IMG/VR virus record: IMGVR_UViG_3300046515_000105
Location: 1-26,302 of that record
Strand: one strand, 5' to 3'
From: a virus
DNA: 26,302 bases
Position numbers and translations under genes: made by a program. The notes under the pieces are model-generated. The model was not told the origin of the DNA and did no database searches. It worked only from the letters and a program-made list of their open reading frames with translations. Shown here one piece after another: positions 3,114 through 7,983 of the stretch (the stretch's first letter is position 1; each line of letters starts with the position of its first letter).

Positions 3114-3983
3114 TCAGTCACCGCAGAAGCACGCAATTGCTTCGTCATGATCGGCGAACATATCTAGCTGGATTTCCGAGTAATCAAGCATCTCCTGATA
3201 GCTCGGACGGTCGAAGCGGAAAAGGGCGCCGTTCCCGGTTATGCCGCTGCTGGAAACGGCAGTGCGCTCCATGCGCGCCCACCACTCAGCCTTGCGGACT
3301 GGCGAGCCCCGGTCGCCGGCGATGATCGAATAGACCTGGTACGCGCCCTTCAAGAAGCACAGGTCGCAGTTCCCTTCGAGCGTTCGTCCATTGATGGTCG
3401 GCAGCATCAGGTCGAAGGGCTGGGCCGCCCAGAATTCAGTCACGTCCTGGACGCCGACCCCGGCATCTGCCAGTGGCATCACCATGGTGGCGTGCTTGCT
3501 CTCGCTGGTGGTTTTTCTGTGCCTGATCTTCGCCACTCGTCGTGGCTCGTCAGCGCGGATGCCGGTCATCATGTCCACCGGCGTTTCCTCCGTCGAGCAC
3601 CCAACCATCCTCAGGTATTTGTGAATCACACGGATCTTTAGGTCGATGGTGCAGAAGCGGGTAACCGGGTTCGGCAGGTAACTGCGTTTTCTGATCAGCG
3701 CTTCGAATGGCTCGCCATCGCGACTGGCTGTCTTGTAGTCGACGATGGCGAAGCCACGATCATCGTCCCGGAACTCAAGCCAGACAATCGGCACGCCCCA
3801 GCGGACCGAGCATTCCTGAACGAAGTCCAGGGTCGCCGGGTGTTCCTTGCCGGTGTTGGCGAAAGTTACGATCAGGTCGCCCAGATCGGTGTTGTTGTCG
3901 AGCACCTGGCGCAGCATATAGGCGCTGGTCCGGCCGCCAGAGAAGCTGACGACCGTCGTCCCGGACATTTTGTAGGGAGACAT
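3114..3983 (-). CDS. PAPS-reductase-like PP-loop protein
   Basis: 289 residues. Residues 13-20 (SFSGGRTS) are a PP-loop nucleotide-binding motif at the N-terminus, followed by an adenine nucleotide alpha hydrolase fold typical of the PAPS reductase/sulfurtransferase family. Conserved Cys are seen at 111 (RFCTIDLKI), 206 and 209 (CDLCFLKG), and 285 and 287 (CFCGD), which could hold an Fe-S cluster or act in sulfur transfer. Phage members may modify nucleic acids or scavenge sulfur; the substrate is not known. GAGGATC lies 8 nt before ATG 3983. The upstream gap holds a relic fragment and an HNH gene. Confidence 0.85.
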   Translation of the reverse strand: MSPYKMSGTTVVSFSGGRTSAYMLRQVLDNNTDLGDLIVTFANTGKEHPATLDFVQECSVRWGVPIVWLEFRDDDRGFAIVDYKTASRDGEPFEALIRKRSYLPNPVTRFCTIDLKIRVIHKYLRMVGCSTEETPVDMMTGIRADEPRRVAKIRHRKTTSESKHATMVMPLADAGVGVQDVTEFWAAQPFDLMLPTINGRTLEGNCDLCFLKGAYQVYSIIAGDRGSPVRKAEWWARMERTAVSSSGITGNGALFRFDRPSYQEMLDYSEIQLDMFADHDEAIACFCGD

Positions 3984-4022: not shown

Positions 4023-4139
4023 TTAACGCTTGCGGTAGGTTTTGGTCAGGTCACCGTTGACCACGAATCCACGCTGAAGAAGTAAATTCGCCAGCGAGGC
4101 ACGGTCTTTCTGGCTGTGGCTTGCTTGAGTGAGTAGACC
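4023..4139 (-). pseudogene. Possible 3' fragment of a lost gene
   Basis: An open frame between the HNH gene and the PAPS-reductase-like gene ends with a protein-like tail, LLLQRGFVVNGDLTKTYRKR then TAA at 4023. Upstream the frame is closed by a TGA inside the HNH gene, and it contains no ATG, GTG or TTG. It therefore looks like the C-terminal remnant of a gene whose start was lost when the HNH segment arrived. I cannot name the parent gene. The alternative is non-coding sequence. Confidence 0.35.
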
Positions 4140-4149
4140 AAAATAGCTG

Positions 4150-4596
4150 TTATGCCGCCTTCTTTGGCTTCGGGCTTGACTTGAGCGGAGTGGTCAATGC
4201 CTTCTCGACGCTCCAGCCAAGTCTCAGGCGCATGCTCAATGCGTTGGCAGTCATGCCAATATCTGCAGCCCAGTCGGCAACGTTCTTCGTTACACCATCG
4301 TGCTCAAGCATTACGCAGTGGGTGCGGTTCTTGTTCTGTTCGGCCTGGGTGATCCATCGGCAGTTGCCAGGCTCGTAACCCTTGGCATTCTCGATGCGGT
4401 CCAGGGTCATCGAGCGGTCAGGACATTCGCCCATGTCATCACGGAAGTTCGGGAAGTCGTGCCAGTGATCGCAGACAGTTACACCGAGCGCACCGTAATA
4501 CTTGTAGTTTCCGCAGCTCGGCGTATTGCAGCGCTGCATCATCGACTTCCAGCGTGCATAGGTCAGCGTGCCGCAGCCGCCATGGAGTTTTCTCAT
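4150..4596 (-). CDS. HNH homing-type endonuclease
   Basis: 148 residues. It contains W-KSMMQRC, YYGALGVTVCDHW, a core LDRIEN (65-70) and GYEPGNCRW-T-AEQNKNRT (about 74-92). This arrangement is typical of phage free-standing HNH endonucleases with Asp/Asn/Cys metal and zinc ligands. Residues about 103-134 form a helix-turn-helix DNA-binding tail like NUMOD modules. Such genes spread by cutting empty sites. It lies 24 bp from the broken end of the DGR template repeat and next to a possible gene remnant, so I infer that it arrived with, or caused, that disruption. The upstream ribosome-binding site is weak. Confidence 0.8.
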   Translation of the reverse strand: MRKLHGGCGTLTYARWKSMMQRCNTPSCGNYKYYGALGVTVCDHWHDFPNFRDDMGECPDRSMTLDRIENAKGYEPGNCRWITQAEQNKNRTHCVMLEHDGVTKNVADWAADIGMTANALSMRLRLGWSVEKALTTPLKSSPKPKKAA

Positions 4597-4828
4597 GATG
4601 GGCAGTCTCTTCAGGTTGGGTCATCGAAGTTCATGTTGAATGCGTTGTTGGCGGAGCGCTGCGACCTGTCGTGCTATCTACGTCGCCCCGGCGATTGCTC
4701 ATCGGGGAAACTGCGCGAGACCTACACGGACGCTTTAGACCGGCGGTATCTCTGATGCGCATGGCGGTGACCTATCAAGTCAGCGGCACGACCAGATTCA
4801 AATCGCACAGACCAGAGAGCCTTGACTC
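4597..4828 (-). other. Intergenic DGR region between avd and the HNH gene
   Basis: 232 bp without a convincing gene. It contains the 44-bp template-repeat fragment (4621-4664) and a 164-bp stretch between it and avd with no detectable match to the variable gene. A small hairpin GAGAG/CTCTC lies close to the avd stop. In complete DGRs this interval holds the full template repeat and is followed by the RT gene; neither the full repeat nor an RT is here. Confidence 0.6.
4621..4664 (-). repeat. DGR template repeat (TR) fragment
   Basis: On the coding (minus) strand this 44-bp segment aligns without gaps to the 3' part of the variable gene (5313-5356). All 31 non-adenine template positions are identical. 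Seven of 13 template adenines are changed in the variable copy (five A to T, two A to G). The template reads S-Q-R-S-A-N-N-A-F-N-M-N-F-D, rich in AAC codons as expected for a DGR template. Homology stops sharply at both ends, so most of the usual TR of about 100 bp is missing, including the part that would pair with the 3' end of the variable region. Confidence 0.88.
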
Positions 4829-5182
4829 TCAGGTAGCGGGCGCGGCGGAGTGTCTTTTCCAGGCGTTGGCCTGTTTCCCGATAGACGCAGTCAGCTCAAT
4901 GGCTTTAGCGTGCTGCGGAATACTGATGAAGCGTTTTTCCTTGAAGAGCCTGAGCAAGAATTCGATCACATGAATCCGCTCAACGAGCGTACCAAGATGA
5001 AGAATCTTGTCCTTTGCTGCGTTGGCACGAGCGATCAGCACCATGATCTCGATGCATTCATCACGAACCTTTGCGCCAAGGCTGACTTTGAAATCCCGAG
5101 GGATATTGCGGGTCAGGTCTGTGGCCAAGCTGAGAAGGTCAAAGGCGACCTTGTGAATCTGCAGTTCCGTGTGCATTGCCAT
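4829..5182 (-). CDS. avd: Avd-like accessory variability determinant (four-helix bundle)
   Basis: 117 residues, basic and nearly all helical. The pattern HKVAFDLLSLATDLTRNIPR, then FKVSLGAKVRDECIEIMVLI-RANAA-K, then a third and fourth amphipathic helix, is that of the four-helix-bundle (S23-like) family that includes DGR Avd. In known DGRs Avd forms a pentamer, binds RT and template RNA, and is needed for mutagenic retrohoming. AAGGAG lies about 10 nt before ATG 5182. It sits in the canonical order variable gene - avd - template, but the RT gene that should follow is absent. General four-helix-bundle proteins are the alternative; the adjacent TR/VR pair makes Avd much more likely. Confidence 0.85.
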   Translation of the reverse strand: MAMHTELQIHKVAFDLLSLATDLTRNIPRDFKVSLGAKVRDECIEIMVLIARANAAKDKILHLGTLVERIHVIEFLLRLFKEKRFISIPQHAKAIELTASIGKQANAWKRHSAAPAT

Positions 5183-5207
5183 GCGGCAATTTCTCCTTGA
5201 AGGGCAA

Positions 5208-5225
5208 CCGGCCGCAAGCGGCCGG
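5208..5225. promoter_or_regulatory. DGR-type target hairpin/cruciform downstream of the variable region
   Basis: A perfect inverted repeat, CCGGCCGCAAGCGGCCGG (7-8 bp stem, 2-4 nt loop), lies 14 bp after the variable-gene stop and before the avd ribosome-binding site. In the Bordetella phage DGR a hairpin just after the variable region is needed for target recognition. Position and size fit that role. There is no following T-run on the coding strand, which argues against a terminator. Confidence 0.6.
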
Positions 5226-5239
5226 ATTAAATGAGCGAA

Positions 5240-5854
5240 TTAATCAATGAGCACGCTGCGGACGGGGCGGACGCGGAGCTCGAGGCCCTTGCCGGTGATG
5301 AGCTGAATGCCATCACCGAAGTACACGTAGAATGCGAAGTAGGCGGAGCGCTGCGAACTCGACCAGTAATAGGCGTCTTTAGCGAACACCTCAGGGCAGT
5401 TCAGCCAGCCCAGGTAAAGCTCAGCGGCTGCCGGCAAATAGAAATCATGGTGGTCGTCAGCCTGGTATTCAGCGCATGCATTGGCGGCCGGGTATTTGGC
5501 TTCACTTTCGTTGCCGATCAGAATCTCAGTATTGGCGAGACCATCAGTCTTGCTGAGACCCTCTACTTCAATACCGCGCCCGCCCCACTCATGACAGCCA
5601 ACATCCTTGGTCGCGAAGATCAGGTAGTGCGCAGGCACGCTGCCACGCTCAGCCACGAACCCACCGTTGATGCCGCCCTGGCCGGGCCAGATTTCACCCA
5701 CGGCAGGCGCTGCGAAAGCGGCATTCATTGCTGGCTGAGCCGGCTGCGGCGAGATCTGCGCGATGACGCTGGCGAGCGCCAGGCCCGCAATGGTTGATGC
5801 TGGAAGCTTGATGGTCGCTTCACCGACTTTCAAAGTGATCATTTCAGGTTTCAT
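5240..5854 (-). CDS. DGR variable protein with C-type-lectin/DUF1566-like C-terminus
   Basis: 204 residues from ATG 5854, chosen because GAGGA lies about 7 nt upstream; a start at 5992 would overlap the neighbouring gene. An N-terminal region with a hydrophobic helix (about 17-33) is followed by IWPGQGG. The lectin-like part shows FYLPAAAELYLG, YYWSSS and the end motif LELRVRPVRSV, as in DGR target proteins. Residues 167-181 are encoded by the segment matching the template repeat, and Y/F/V/G residues replace template Asn/Met/Asp. Such domains bind variable ligands. Here it lies in the early left operon, not with the tail genes, so it is probably not a tail fibre. Confidence 0.85.
   Translation of the reverse strand: MKPEMITLKVGEATIKLPASTIAGLALASVIAQISPQPAQPAMNAAFAAPAVGEIWPGQGGINGGFVAERGSVPAHYLIFATKDVGCHEWGGRGIEVEGLSKTDGLANTEILIGNESEAKYPAANACAEYQADDHHDFYLPAAAELYLGWLNCPEVFAKDAYYWSSSQRSAYFAFYVYFGDGIQLITGKGLELRVRPVRSVLID
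5313..5356 (-). repeat. DGR variable repeat (VR) core
   Basis: Counterpart of the TR fragment at 4621-4664: 44 bp, 37 identities, and all 7 differences are at template adenines. It encodes residues 167-181 of the variable protein. The real variable region probably extends further toward the stop (to about 5243), since codons for G-I-Q-L-I-T-G follow in the usual variable positions, but the template for that part is lost. Confidence 0.88.
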
Positions 5855-5942
5855 CTGATTTCCTCGATCAGAATCAAGCCTCCGAAAGTTCGGTGGCGAA
5901 TAGGTTGGTGGTGGGCTATACGTGGTGACCGGAGGGCCGGGG

Positions 5943-6266
5943 TCATCTTGCGAAATCTGATATCTCGTCAAGTGCCGACTGGATTGCCTCAAACGCTTCG
6001 CCGGTATCCATCGTTTTGAAGTCTTTCAGCAAGTCGTATACGCGCTGAATGCATTCCTGAAGGTCATCAGCTGCAGAGCTTTCACCTTCAAGCTCTTCGA
6101 TTTGCTCCCTTAGCTCTTCGACCTCCTTTTTCAGATCGGTTACTTCACTTAAGTAGGTGCCTCGGTACTCAATTGACCGACGCGCCATTTCCTTCTGAGC
6201 GTCCTCGTCAATTCCTGCATAGTGGATCAACTCATCGTCACTCAGCGCGGTTACTGGAAGTCCCAT
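5943..6266 (-). CDS. Coiled-coil hypothetical protein
   Basis: 107 residues, very acidic and helical. Residues about 38-65 (VTDLKKEVEELREQIEELEG) form a clear coiled coil. AAGGAG lies 7 nt before ATG 6266. It follows the RHH-like gene with a 2-nt gap and precedes the DGR variable gene by 88 bp. I recall similar small coiled-coil proteins in phage early regions, without a known job. Confidence 0.65.
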   Translation of the reverse strand: MGLPVTALSDDELIHYAGIDEDAQKEMARRSIEYRGTYLSEVTDLKKEVEELREQIEELEGESSAADDLQECIQRVYDLLKDFKTMDTGEAFEAIQSALDEISDFAR

Positions 6267-6679: not shown

Positions 6680-7369
6680 TCATCGGAAATTGCGCTGCAG
6701 GGGATAGTCGACGCCGTACTGCTCGACGATCCGGTCAAGTTTCTTTTCGGCAATACCCAGATGCTTCGCGCAAGTCTTGCGGGAAAGACCCAGATCCCGA
6801 ATGGGCAAGATGCGCTCAATGAGCTTGCGATCTGCGGCCTCGTCAACAAAGCCGGGAAGCTGGAAGCCGTGAAGCTTTGCCATGCGCCGCAGGCGGTCCT
6901 TCGTGATATCGAACTTGCGGATGACATCCTGCTGTGTGGCGCCCTCGGCGAAAGCCTTTTTCACGTCAGGTACCAGCGCCGCTTCGCGCTCGCGCTTCGC
7001 GGCCAGACAGCTGCTGTGCCCATGGCTACGGAAGACGATGCCGTAGTTGGCCGCGATGTAGTTGAGCCGCTTCGTACCCAGGCCCAAGTCTTTCGACGCC
7101 GCCGCGACCCCGAGGTCGATATAGGCCCTCAACTTCTCCGCTATGTCGCGCTCGAATTGCGCAGCCTTATCGGACTTCTGGATATGGACTGCCTTGCTGA
7201 CCTTGGCGCTGGGAGCGATGATTTGATTGCCAAATGGCTGCGGCGCGAAGCGGGTCACTTCCAATTGCTGGACGACGCCGCCGCGTGCCAGATAGTCGCT
7301 CATCGCGGCCGCGAGCCGGGCCGACTCGGCCTGATTGTGTTGGACCATGCTGAGTTCGAGGCTGATCAT
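6680..7369 (-). CDS. HTH-rich phage protein
   Basis: 229 residues. It carries three similar predicted helix-turn-helix units: about 85-110 (LGVAAASKDLGLGTKRLNYI), 140-165 (EGATQQDVIRKFDITKDRLR) and 190-215 (LGLSRKTCAKHLGIAEKKLD). The repeats suggest binding to a longer DNA site. ATG 7369 overlaps the previous stop (ATGA). It follows the recombination cassette, so a role in phage DNA metabolism or regulation is likely but unproved. Confidence 0.65.
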   Translation of the reverse strand: MISLELSMVQHNQAESARLAAAMSDYLARGGVVQQLEVTRFAPQPFGNQIIAPSAKVSKAVHIQKSDKAAQFERDIAEKLRAYIDLGVAAASKDLGLGTKRLNYIAANYGIVFRSHGHSSCLAAKREREAALVPDVKKAFAEGATQQDVIRKFDITKDRLRRMAKLHGFQLPGFVDEAADRKLIERILPIRDLGLSRKTCAKHLGIAEKKLDRIVEQYGVDYPLQRNFR

Positions 7370-7983
7370 GCTGCAATCCCCAATACCTGATTCATCCGCT
7401 CATCGAGGATTTCGTAGAACGTCTTCACGCGCTCGGAGATCTTTCGAATCATCACTTCGTCGCGGTACATCCGCTTCACGAACAGCGGCATGCCAGGCCA
7501 GTAACTGATGAAGTCGATCCATTCACGCTCCGAAACCCAGAGCCCACCCTGGCACTGCGGGATGTGCTCTTTCGGAACCTCGTCAGCCAGAATCACGCCG
7601 ACCTGAAATTTCGGCAGCTTCGTCTTAATCTCGGTCAGGCCATCGGCCCCGACCAAGGCATCCGGTGAGTACCCAATGCCGTGGTTCAGGATGATGCCGA
7701 CTTGACGGGTCGATACCCCTTCACGATCTTCGTACAGGCCGCGCGCCACAACTTCCAATTCGTGTCCGCGTATCGTGGCCTTCGTCTGAAATGGAATTTC
7801 GGCAGCTTCTTCAGTGATTCGCTCACCGATTAACTGGTCCATGTAGGTGTAGGCAGCAACGCCAAAACCAGCAGGCCCCTTGCCGGCGACCAAAAGGCAG
7901 TCCAGCTCAGAGGCTGTCGCGATGCCCAGACGCAAGGCCAGCCATTCCGGCGAGCCTTGCTTGATGTCAGTCACTATTTGCAT
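7366..7983 (-). CDS. YqaJ-like (lambda Exo family) viral recombinase exonuclease
   Basis: 205 residues from ATG 7983, preceded by GGAGG at 8 nt; the longer in-frame start at 8061 lacks this support. Motifs fit the YqaJ PD-(D/E)XK fold: QGSPEWLALRLG near the N-terminus, GHELEVVARGLYE (73-85), Asp108 in YSPDALV, Glu118/Lys120 in LTEIKTK, and Gln143/Gln145 in IPQCQGG. It would degrade dsDNA from 5' ends to give 3' tails for annealing. Its start overlaps the end of the ERF gene, so the two form a Red-like pair. Confidence 0.88.
   Translation of the reverse strand: MQIVTDIKQGSPEWLALRLGIATASELDCLLVAGKGPAGFGVAAYTYMDQLIGERITEEAAEIPFQTKATIRGHELEVVARGLYEDREGVSTRQVGIILNHGIGYSPDALVGADGLTEIKTKLPKFQVGVILADEVPKEHIPQCQGGLWVSEREWIDFISYWPGMPLFVKRMYRDEVMIRKISERVKTFYEILDERMNQVLGIAA

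Follow-up and report, generated by a model that had tools for sequence, protein, structure and literature searches.

The stretch of DNA that we analysed, referred to here as the window, comprises all 26,302 nucleotides of positions 1 to 26,302 of IMG/VR virus record IMGVR_UViG_3300046515_000105. It carries a diversity-generating retroelement (DGR), a system that mutates one of its host's own proteins by way of a template, a variable repeat and a reverse transcriptase (RT). As judged by comparison with related loci, this DGR is broken: an HNH gene now stands where intact relatives have the RT core and the 3' half of the template, and of the RT itself the C-terminal codons are left. The account that we favour, and which we consider probable, is that a DGR of a type common in Pseudomonas phages was disabled by an HNH endonuclease gene of the homing type, and that such HNH genes invade DGRs and freeze the target.

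A template/variable repeat pair with differences confined to adenines

A first-pass annotation of this DNA had described a 44-bp pair (4621-4664 and 5313-5356) whose copies differ only at A, and its coordinates, counts and probability were all reproduced. Read on the minus strand, which is the coding strand (4664-4621 against 5356-5313), the copies align without gaps over 44 columns, 37 of which are identical. All seven differences fall at template A (seven of the 13 A's; five A to T and two A to G) and the non-A positions are identical (31/31); the chance that seven differences would all fall on A is C(13,7)/C(44,7), or 4.5e-5. A scan of the whole window for runs of at least 27 bp with mismatches restricted to a single base, made at every offset and on both strands, found no second comparable pair; it also returned the same pair reversed and one A-rich match in which 15 of 16 A's are mismatched. 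Base 1 of the 44-mer corresponds to base 1 of the template in intact relatives, such as L043 (TCGCAGCGC...), and identity between the window template and those of intact relatives stops past position 44 (...CTTCGATGA), intact templates being ~101-105 bp in length.

The pair had been taken for the template and variable repeat of a DGR, with the expectation that variation in relatives would lie mainly at template A, and the relatives bear this out. Over 176 template/variable pairs pooled from 89 related loci, mismatches occur at a frequency of 0.437 where the template has A and of 0.004 elsewhere, a contrast that is somewhat sharpened by a pair-finding scoring that favours A mismatches. (Note that pair lengths of ~100 bp with almost no non-A mismatch are not produced by such scoring.) Templates of the family are usually 100-106 bp, and there are about two variable repeats per locus. 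One member, L002, has a template with only ~20 A's and with one and four differences from its two variable repeats (7529-7630, 6127-6228 and 6829-6929); it looks as if a variable repeat had overwritten the template.

The Avd-like gene that had been placed between the two copies was identified as avd by profile search of 4829-5182 (Table 1), with an NCBIfam Avd match (E 4e-13) that lies below that model's cut-off, and it is 87% identical to the avd of the RT+ phage Cruim01. The RT-15 RNA ends on the first bases of the template. We also accept as the DGR target the 204-aa protein that had been proposed as the DGR variable protein. A C-type-lectin fold with the variable residues on its exposed face had been predicted for this protein, whose structure model is of low confidence over the variable segment (pLDDT <50) and gave no match in a fold search. 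There is one target gene only in the window; most relatives have two. When compared to Cruim01 by blastn, the body of the window target resembles target 1 and its 3' flank resembles the flank behind target 2. The window target would thus be an apparent fusion of target 1 to the 3' end and flank of target 2, as expected if two variable repeats had recombined and one target had been deleted. PADLOC gave no match for the window's target, avd or HNH gene. Beside the broken DGR, on the minus strand at 3114-3983, is a gene for a protein of the PAPS-reductase family, which PADLOC matches to SspD (E 7e-17), a match that is to be read in light of the fact that PAPS-reductase homologues are common in phages.

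Table 1 Features of the DGR locus in the window
Feature	Position	Strand	Basis
RT gene remnant, last ~42 codons (NSYFGLL...)	4023..4151	-	open frame, no own start codon seen; tblastn with Cruim01 RT
HNH endonuclease gene, 148 aa	4150..4596	-	PHROG 3377, E 3.9e-48; placed by reference to Cruim01 and L041
Template repeat remnant, positions 1-44 of ~105	4621..4664	-	pair alignment and comparison with templates of relatives
Full-length RT-15 RNA (RF03018), lying between avd and the template	4662..4845	-	cmscan 172 bits, gathering score 82
avd, 117 aa	4829..5182	-	PHROG 3206 'Avd protein of DGR', E 3e-32; Pfam bAvd 56.5 bits, cut-off 40
DGR target gene, 204 aa, Lcl_C-like C-terminus	5240..5854	-	Pfam Lcl_C, E 2e-4 (below cut-off); phrog_4245, E 4e-28
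Variable repeat	5252..5356	-	5313-5356 matches surviving template; remainder placed by homology to ~105-bp repeats of relatives

An HNH gene takes the place of the RT core and the template 3' half

Searches with tblastn and of IMG/VR place the window locus in a widespread family of Pseudomonas-phage DGRs. In Cruim01 (PP179333), the minus-strand order is target 1, target 2, avd, RT-15 RNA, template and an RT of 386 codons. The location of the window DGR in an early operon had been thought unusual, a view that does not hold for this family, since Cruim01, Haboob and phPA-G have intact targets-avd-template-RT cassettes in a similar early region. (Pseudomonas has been named among the DGR-rich genera, PMC6642488.)

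No RT was found with Pfam RVT_1 over the window record, which is a fragment of a phage, such that an RT could lie elsewhere in the genome. With the RT of Cruim01 as query, tblastn matched the window over residues 334-386 only (4184-4026, 60% identity, E 3.5e-14), and the RT frame restarts at AACAGCTATTTTGG (NSYFG), immediately past the stop codon of the HNH gene. When set against Cruim01 and L041, the HNH gene occupies the place of the template 3' part, the spacer and RT codons 1 to ~342. What the window has lost amounts to ~60 bp of template, the spacer and those RT codons, including the YVDD motif that is visible in the Cruim01 RT. The first-pass annotation's claim of a DGR thus stands for the template/variable repeat, avd and the target, and not for a complete element: the A-restricted pair and Avd are present in this fragment record, whereas an adjoining RT with its catalytic part and a full template with its 3' half and spacer are absent, an HNH gene being found instead. 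An exact search of IMG/VR for the window's own template-HNH joint gave no other occurrence.

Mutagenic retrohoming needs an RT and the template 3' end. Because the window locus has no RT in cis and no template 3' end, mutagenic retrohoming should not run there and the target should be frozen.

The same replacement is found at 13 distinct loci

Nearly all of 99 non-duplicate loci collected by avd or template sequence retain the RT; among them, an HNH gene replaces the RT core and leaves an RT tail in the window, L041, L048, L051 and D14O. Searches with HNH proteins added L145-L149, L174, L175 and L212, which brings the replacement to 13 distinct loci. (Note that L210 and L211 were not counted separately, since neither departs from D14O at more than one position in 7 kb.) The left joints lie within the template at position 44 in the window and at ~25 in L041, L048, L051 and L174; inside avd in L145 (codon 69), L147 (~63), L146 (~57), L148 (beyond ~81) and L175 (~96); and inside the RT-15 region in D14O and L212. 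The right joint is usually near RT codon 343-353 and is not identical everywhere, being at ~343 in the window, the L041 group and L175 and at ~325-354 in L146, L147, L148 and D14O/L212; L145 is without an RT tail.

The avd gene survives whole in the window, in D14O and throughout the L041 group; L145-L148 have a truncated copy, and in L149, where target-like genes lie upstream, none was detected. The template is absent from D14O and L145-L149. Several further observations concern these loci. The HNH protein of L149 ends in LTKTYR, which by eye resembles the RT C-terminus. In L146 (4523-5548), L147 (1735-2613) and L148 (2604-3728), the truncated avd frame is open through the HNH gene (+1 frame) and in frame with the RT tail, giving ORFs of 292-374 codons that may be due to chance in G+C-rich DNA. 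A C4 antisense RNA (RF01695) is found upstream of the DGR-linked HNH gene in L146 (4847-4931), L148 (2981-3065) and L149 (4473-4557), where Pseudomonas-type loci have RT-15. In L070 (7553-8596), the RT runs to ~codon 271 and is followed by unrelated sequence without an HNH gene, which represents another route of RT loss. A bAvd search of 274 genomes of one class found many Avd genes beside an RT, with no HNH match in those loci.

Indirect sequence evidence that the HNH gene moves as a cassette

The 206-aa HNH cassette opens with one leader (TATATTCA..ATTTCCACCGAGG) in both of its settings, next to the template in the L041 group and next to avd in L175, and the two settings also share its right joint (..CCCGCCAACAGCTAYTTCGG). 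The HNH genes of L048 and L051 are identical at 620 of 621 positions, but a comparison of the RT tails of these two loci shows differences at 12 of 27 synonymous sites, as against 0 of 90 nonsynonymous sites. L048 and L051 would thus represent two RT lineages, both protein-selected until recently, that carry one cassette, a homing-like signature. Because the RT tails beside this near-identical cassette still bear the mark of protein-level selection, the recipients are likely to have been RT+ until recently. Similarly, the window and L145 have HNH genes that are 90% identical, avd proteins that are 61% identical and different left joints. Cassette identity that exceeds flank identity, together with the clustered right joint, suggests that the HNH gene moves as a cassette into the homologous site of HNH-less alleles, and the occurrence of close relatives in the same broken position in other phages argues that the HNH gene behaves like a mobile homing gene.

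A tree of 89 HNH proteins puts that of the window in a clade of six (support 100/98), every member of which is encoded in an RT-less DGR locus, and gathers the other DGR-linked HNHs into another group with lower support (96/68). On this tree, DGR linkage as a label needs two changes versus 11.5 in shuffles, in a sample that was gathered by similarity to DGR-linked HNHs and in which near-copies inflate the clustering. A profile of the window clade retrieved 80 loci, of which five were the clade's own members, 73 had no DGR feature (as detected by profiles built from Pseudomonas-type DGRs, which could miss divergent DGRs near other HNH genes), and two were L234 and L262. In L234 (3724-5435), from an unrelated phage, a DGR-type RT that looks intact is followed immediately by an HNH gene, and a target-like gene lies upstream; the same HNH invasion may be seen here at an early stage or in a milder form. 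In L262, an HNH gene lies near an intact DGR.

Neither Pfam nor NCBIfam gave an HNH family above cut-off for the window's 148-aa protein. Its structure model (pLDDT 88) had no significant match in Foldseek. A further structural comparison paired residues 1-94 with PacI (Z 6.4) and residues ~95-144 with helix-turn-helix proteins (Z 2.0-2.4); these matches are weak, and the model is consistent with a nuclease that has a DNA-binding tail. The HNH genes are under purifying selection (dN/dS 0.04-0.14). Phage HNH genes of the window's kind are widespread (1062 records), and a profile scan of 84,980 bacterial and archaeal genomes returned only distant HNHs of at most 52% identity.

How the DGR may have been lost

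The replacement itself, the clustered right joint, the variable left joint and the excess of cassette over flank identity are observed directly in the aligned loci. From these we infer that the HNH protein would cut RT+ DGR alleles near a predicted site at RT codon 343-353, and that the 3' part of the template and the RT would be replaced either when an HNH+ copy serves to repair the break or when the HNH gene is captured there. The right end would join near the cut, such that the RT tail is kept, and the left end would vary as a leftward conversion tract or an illegitimate end. The target would from then on keep whichever variant it last held, and the conserved 3' end of the RT gene would be the route by which the HNH gene passes from phage to phage. 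Note that general phage recombination could likewise give a cassette and flanks of unequal age. We give about equal credence and doubt to a further claim, namely that there is an HNH homing lineage specialised on DGRs, one that homes to the 3' end of the RT gene, erases RT and template, and acts as a gene drive that silences diversification across unrelated phages.

Plain decay, in which the RT was deleted under relaxed selection and the HNH gene landed in a dead locus or arrived through mosaic recombination without any active part, is an unlikely explanation, although it is the strongest of those that compete with invasion by the HNH gene. It draws on the wide distribution of such HNH genes in phages, on the variation of the left joints and on the loss of RT sequence elsewhere without this HNH, as in L070. 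However, the HNH gene is always in the same place with a right joint clustered near one RT site, the window's HNH clade occurs only in RT-less DGR loci, and the RT tails beside the near-identical cassette still show protein selection.

Considerably less probable is that the DGR of the window is active in trans, with the RT and template of a co-resident prophage diversifying the window's variable repeat. In its favour, the window has kept its variable repeat and avd whole, and the RT-less loci L048 and L051 are unlike each other at 20 of the 33 template-A sites of the first variable repeat, at 1 of its 72 other sites and at a single site of the 566 bp upstream. This variation may nevertheless predate the cassette, since the target region of this pair has not shared the history of the HNH cassette; in addition, the D14O-type copies L086, L210 and L211, which may be one strain, have at most one difference over 7 kb that includes the variable repeat. 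(The A-site variation of L048/L051, which lies in the target 1 gene at 5582-6237, may be old variation acquired via recombination or the product of diversification in trans.)

It is hardly credible that the HNH gene functions alongside avd and the surviving RNA or RT tail as a component of a novel DGR-derived system, for instance as the nuclease in template-to-target gene conversion, because the intact avd of the window, the L041 group and D14O, the low dN/dS of avd between RT-less pairs and the open avd frames of L146, L147 and L148 are set against an avd that is truncated or undetected and a template that is missing at the other loci described above, a low dN/dS that can predate the HNH gene, and the fact that open alternative frames are common in G+C-rich DNA.

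Relation to known systems

DGRs are treated as adaptive machines, and their loss has been little studied. A clade of mobile nucleases found in RT-less DGR loci would amount to a specific parasite of DGRs, and loci invaded by HNH genes would supply natural frozen variants for comparison with active DGRs. Because the target, avd and RT-15 RNA survive here without the RT, surveys that take the RT as their starting point overlook loci of this kind.

Roux et al. 2021 (PMC8144416) makes no mention of endonucleases, and an incomplete, term-based search of the literature, mainly of titles and abstracts, found no published description of HNH genes that replace the RT of a DGR. The window would accordingly combine a known kind of DGR with the known kind of mobile gene that disabled it, in a specific and recurrent association that we found undescribed in the literature searched.

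The DGR of Bordetella phage BPP-1 is the prototype, with an RT, a full template that has a 3' initiation element, and a tail-fibre target. Like it, the window has A-only differences between template and variable repeat, avd and a target of a putatively lectin-like family; unlike it, the window is without the RT and the template 3' half. Close counterparts are the intact DGRs of Cruim01 (PP179333), SC_8_H2H8_2017, Haboob and VB_PaD_phPA-G, which share with the window the target, avd, RT-15 RNA, the start of the template, the gene order and the early-region setting. Where these have a ~105-bp template, two targets and an RT, the window retains 44 bp of the template and a single target, lacks the RT core and has an HNH gene in the gap. 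Pseudomonas phage vB_PaeS-D14O (BK061588) has an unrecognised RT-less DGR locus, with target, avd, HNH gene and RT tail in the window's order; it differs from the window in that its 206-aa HNH belongs to another clade, its template is wholly gone and its RT tail starts from ~353. Free-standing HNH homing genes are known in phages, with T4-like Mob and those of lactococcal Skunavirus as examples (PMC2988022 and PMC12724721). These genes resemble that of the window in being small, in lying among phage genes, in forming a near-identical cassette within diverged flanks and in spreading by recombination. Unlike those genes, which lie between genes, the window clade appears to be tied to DGR loci, where it replaces most of the RT gene.
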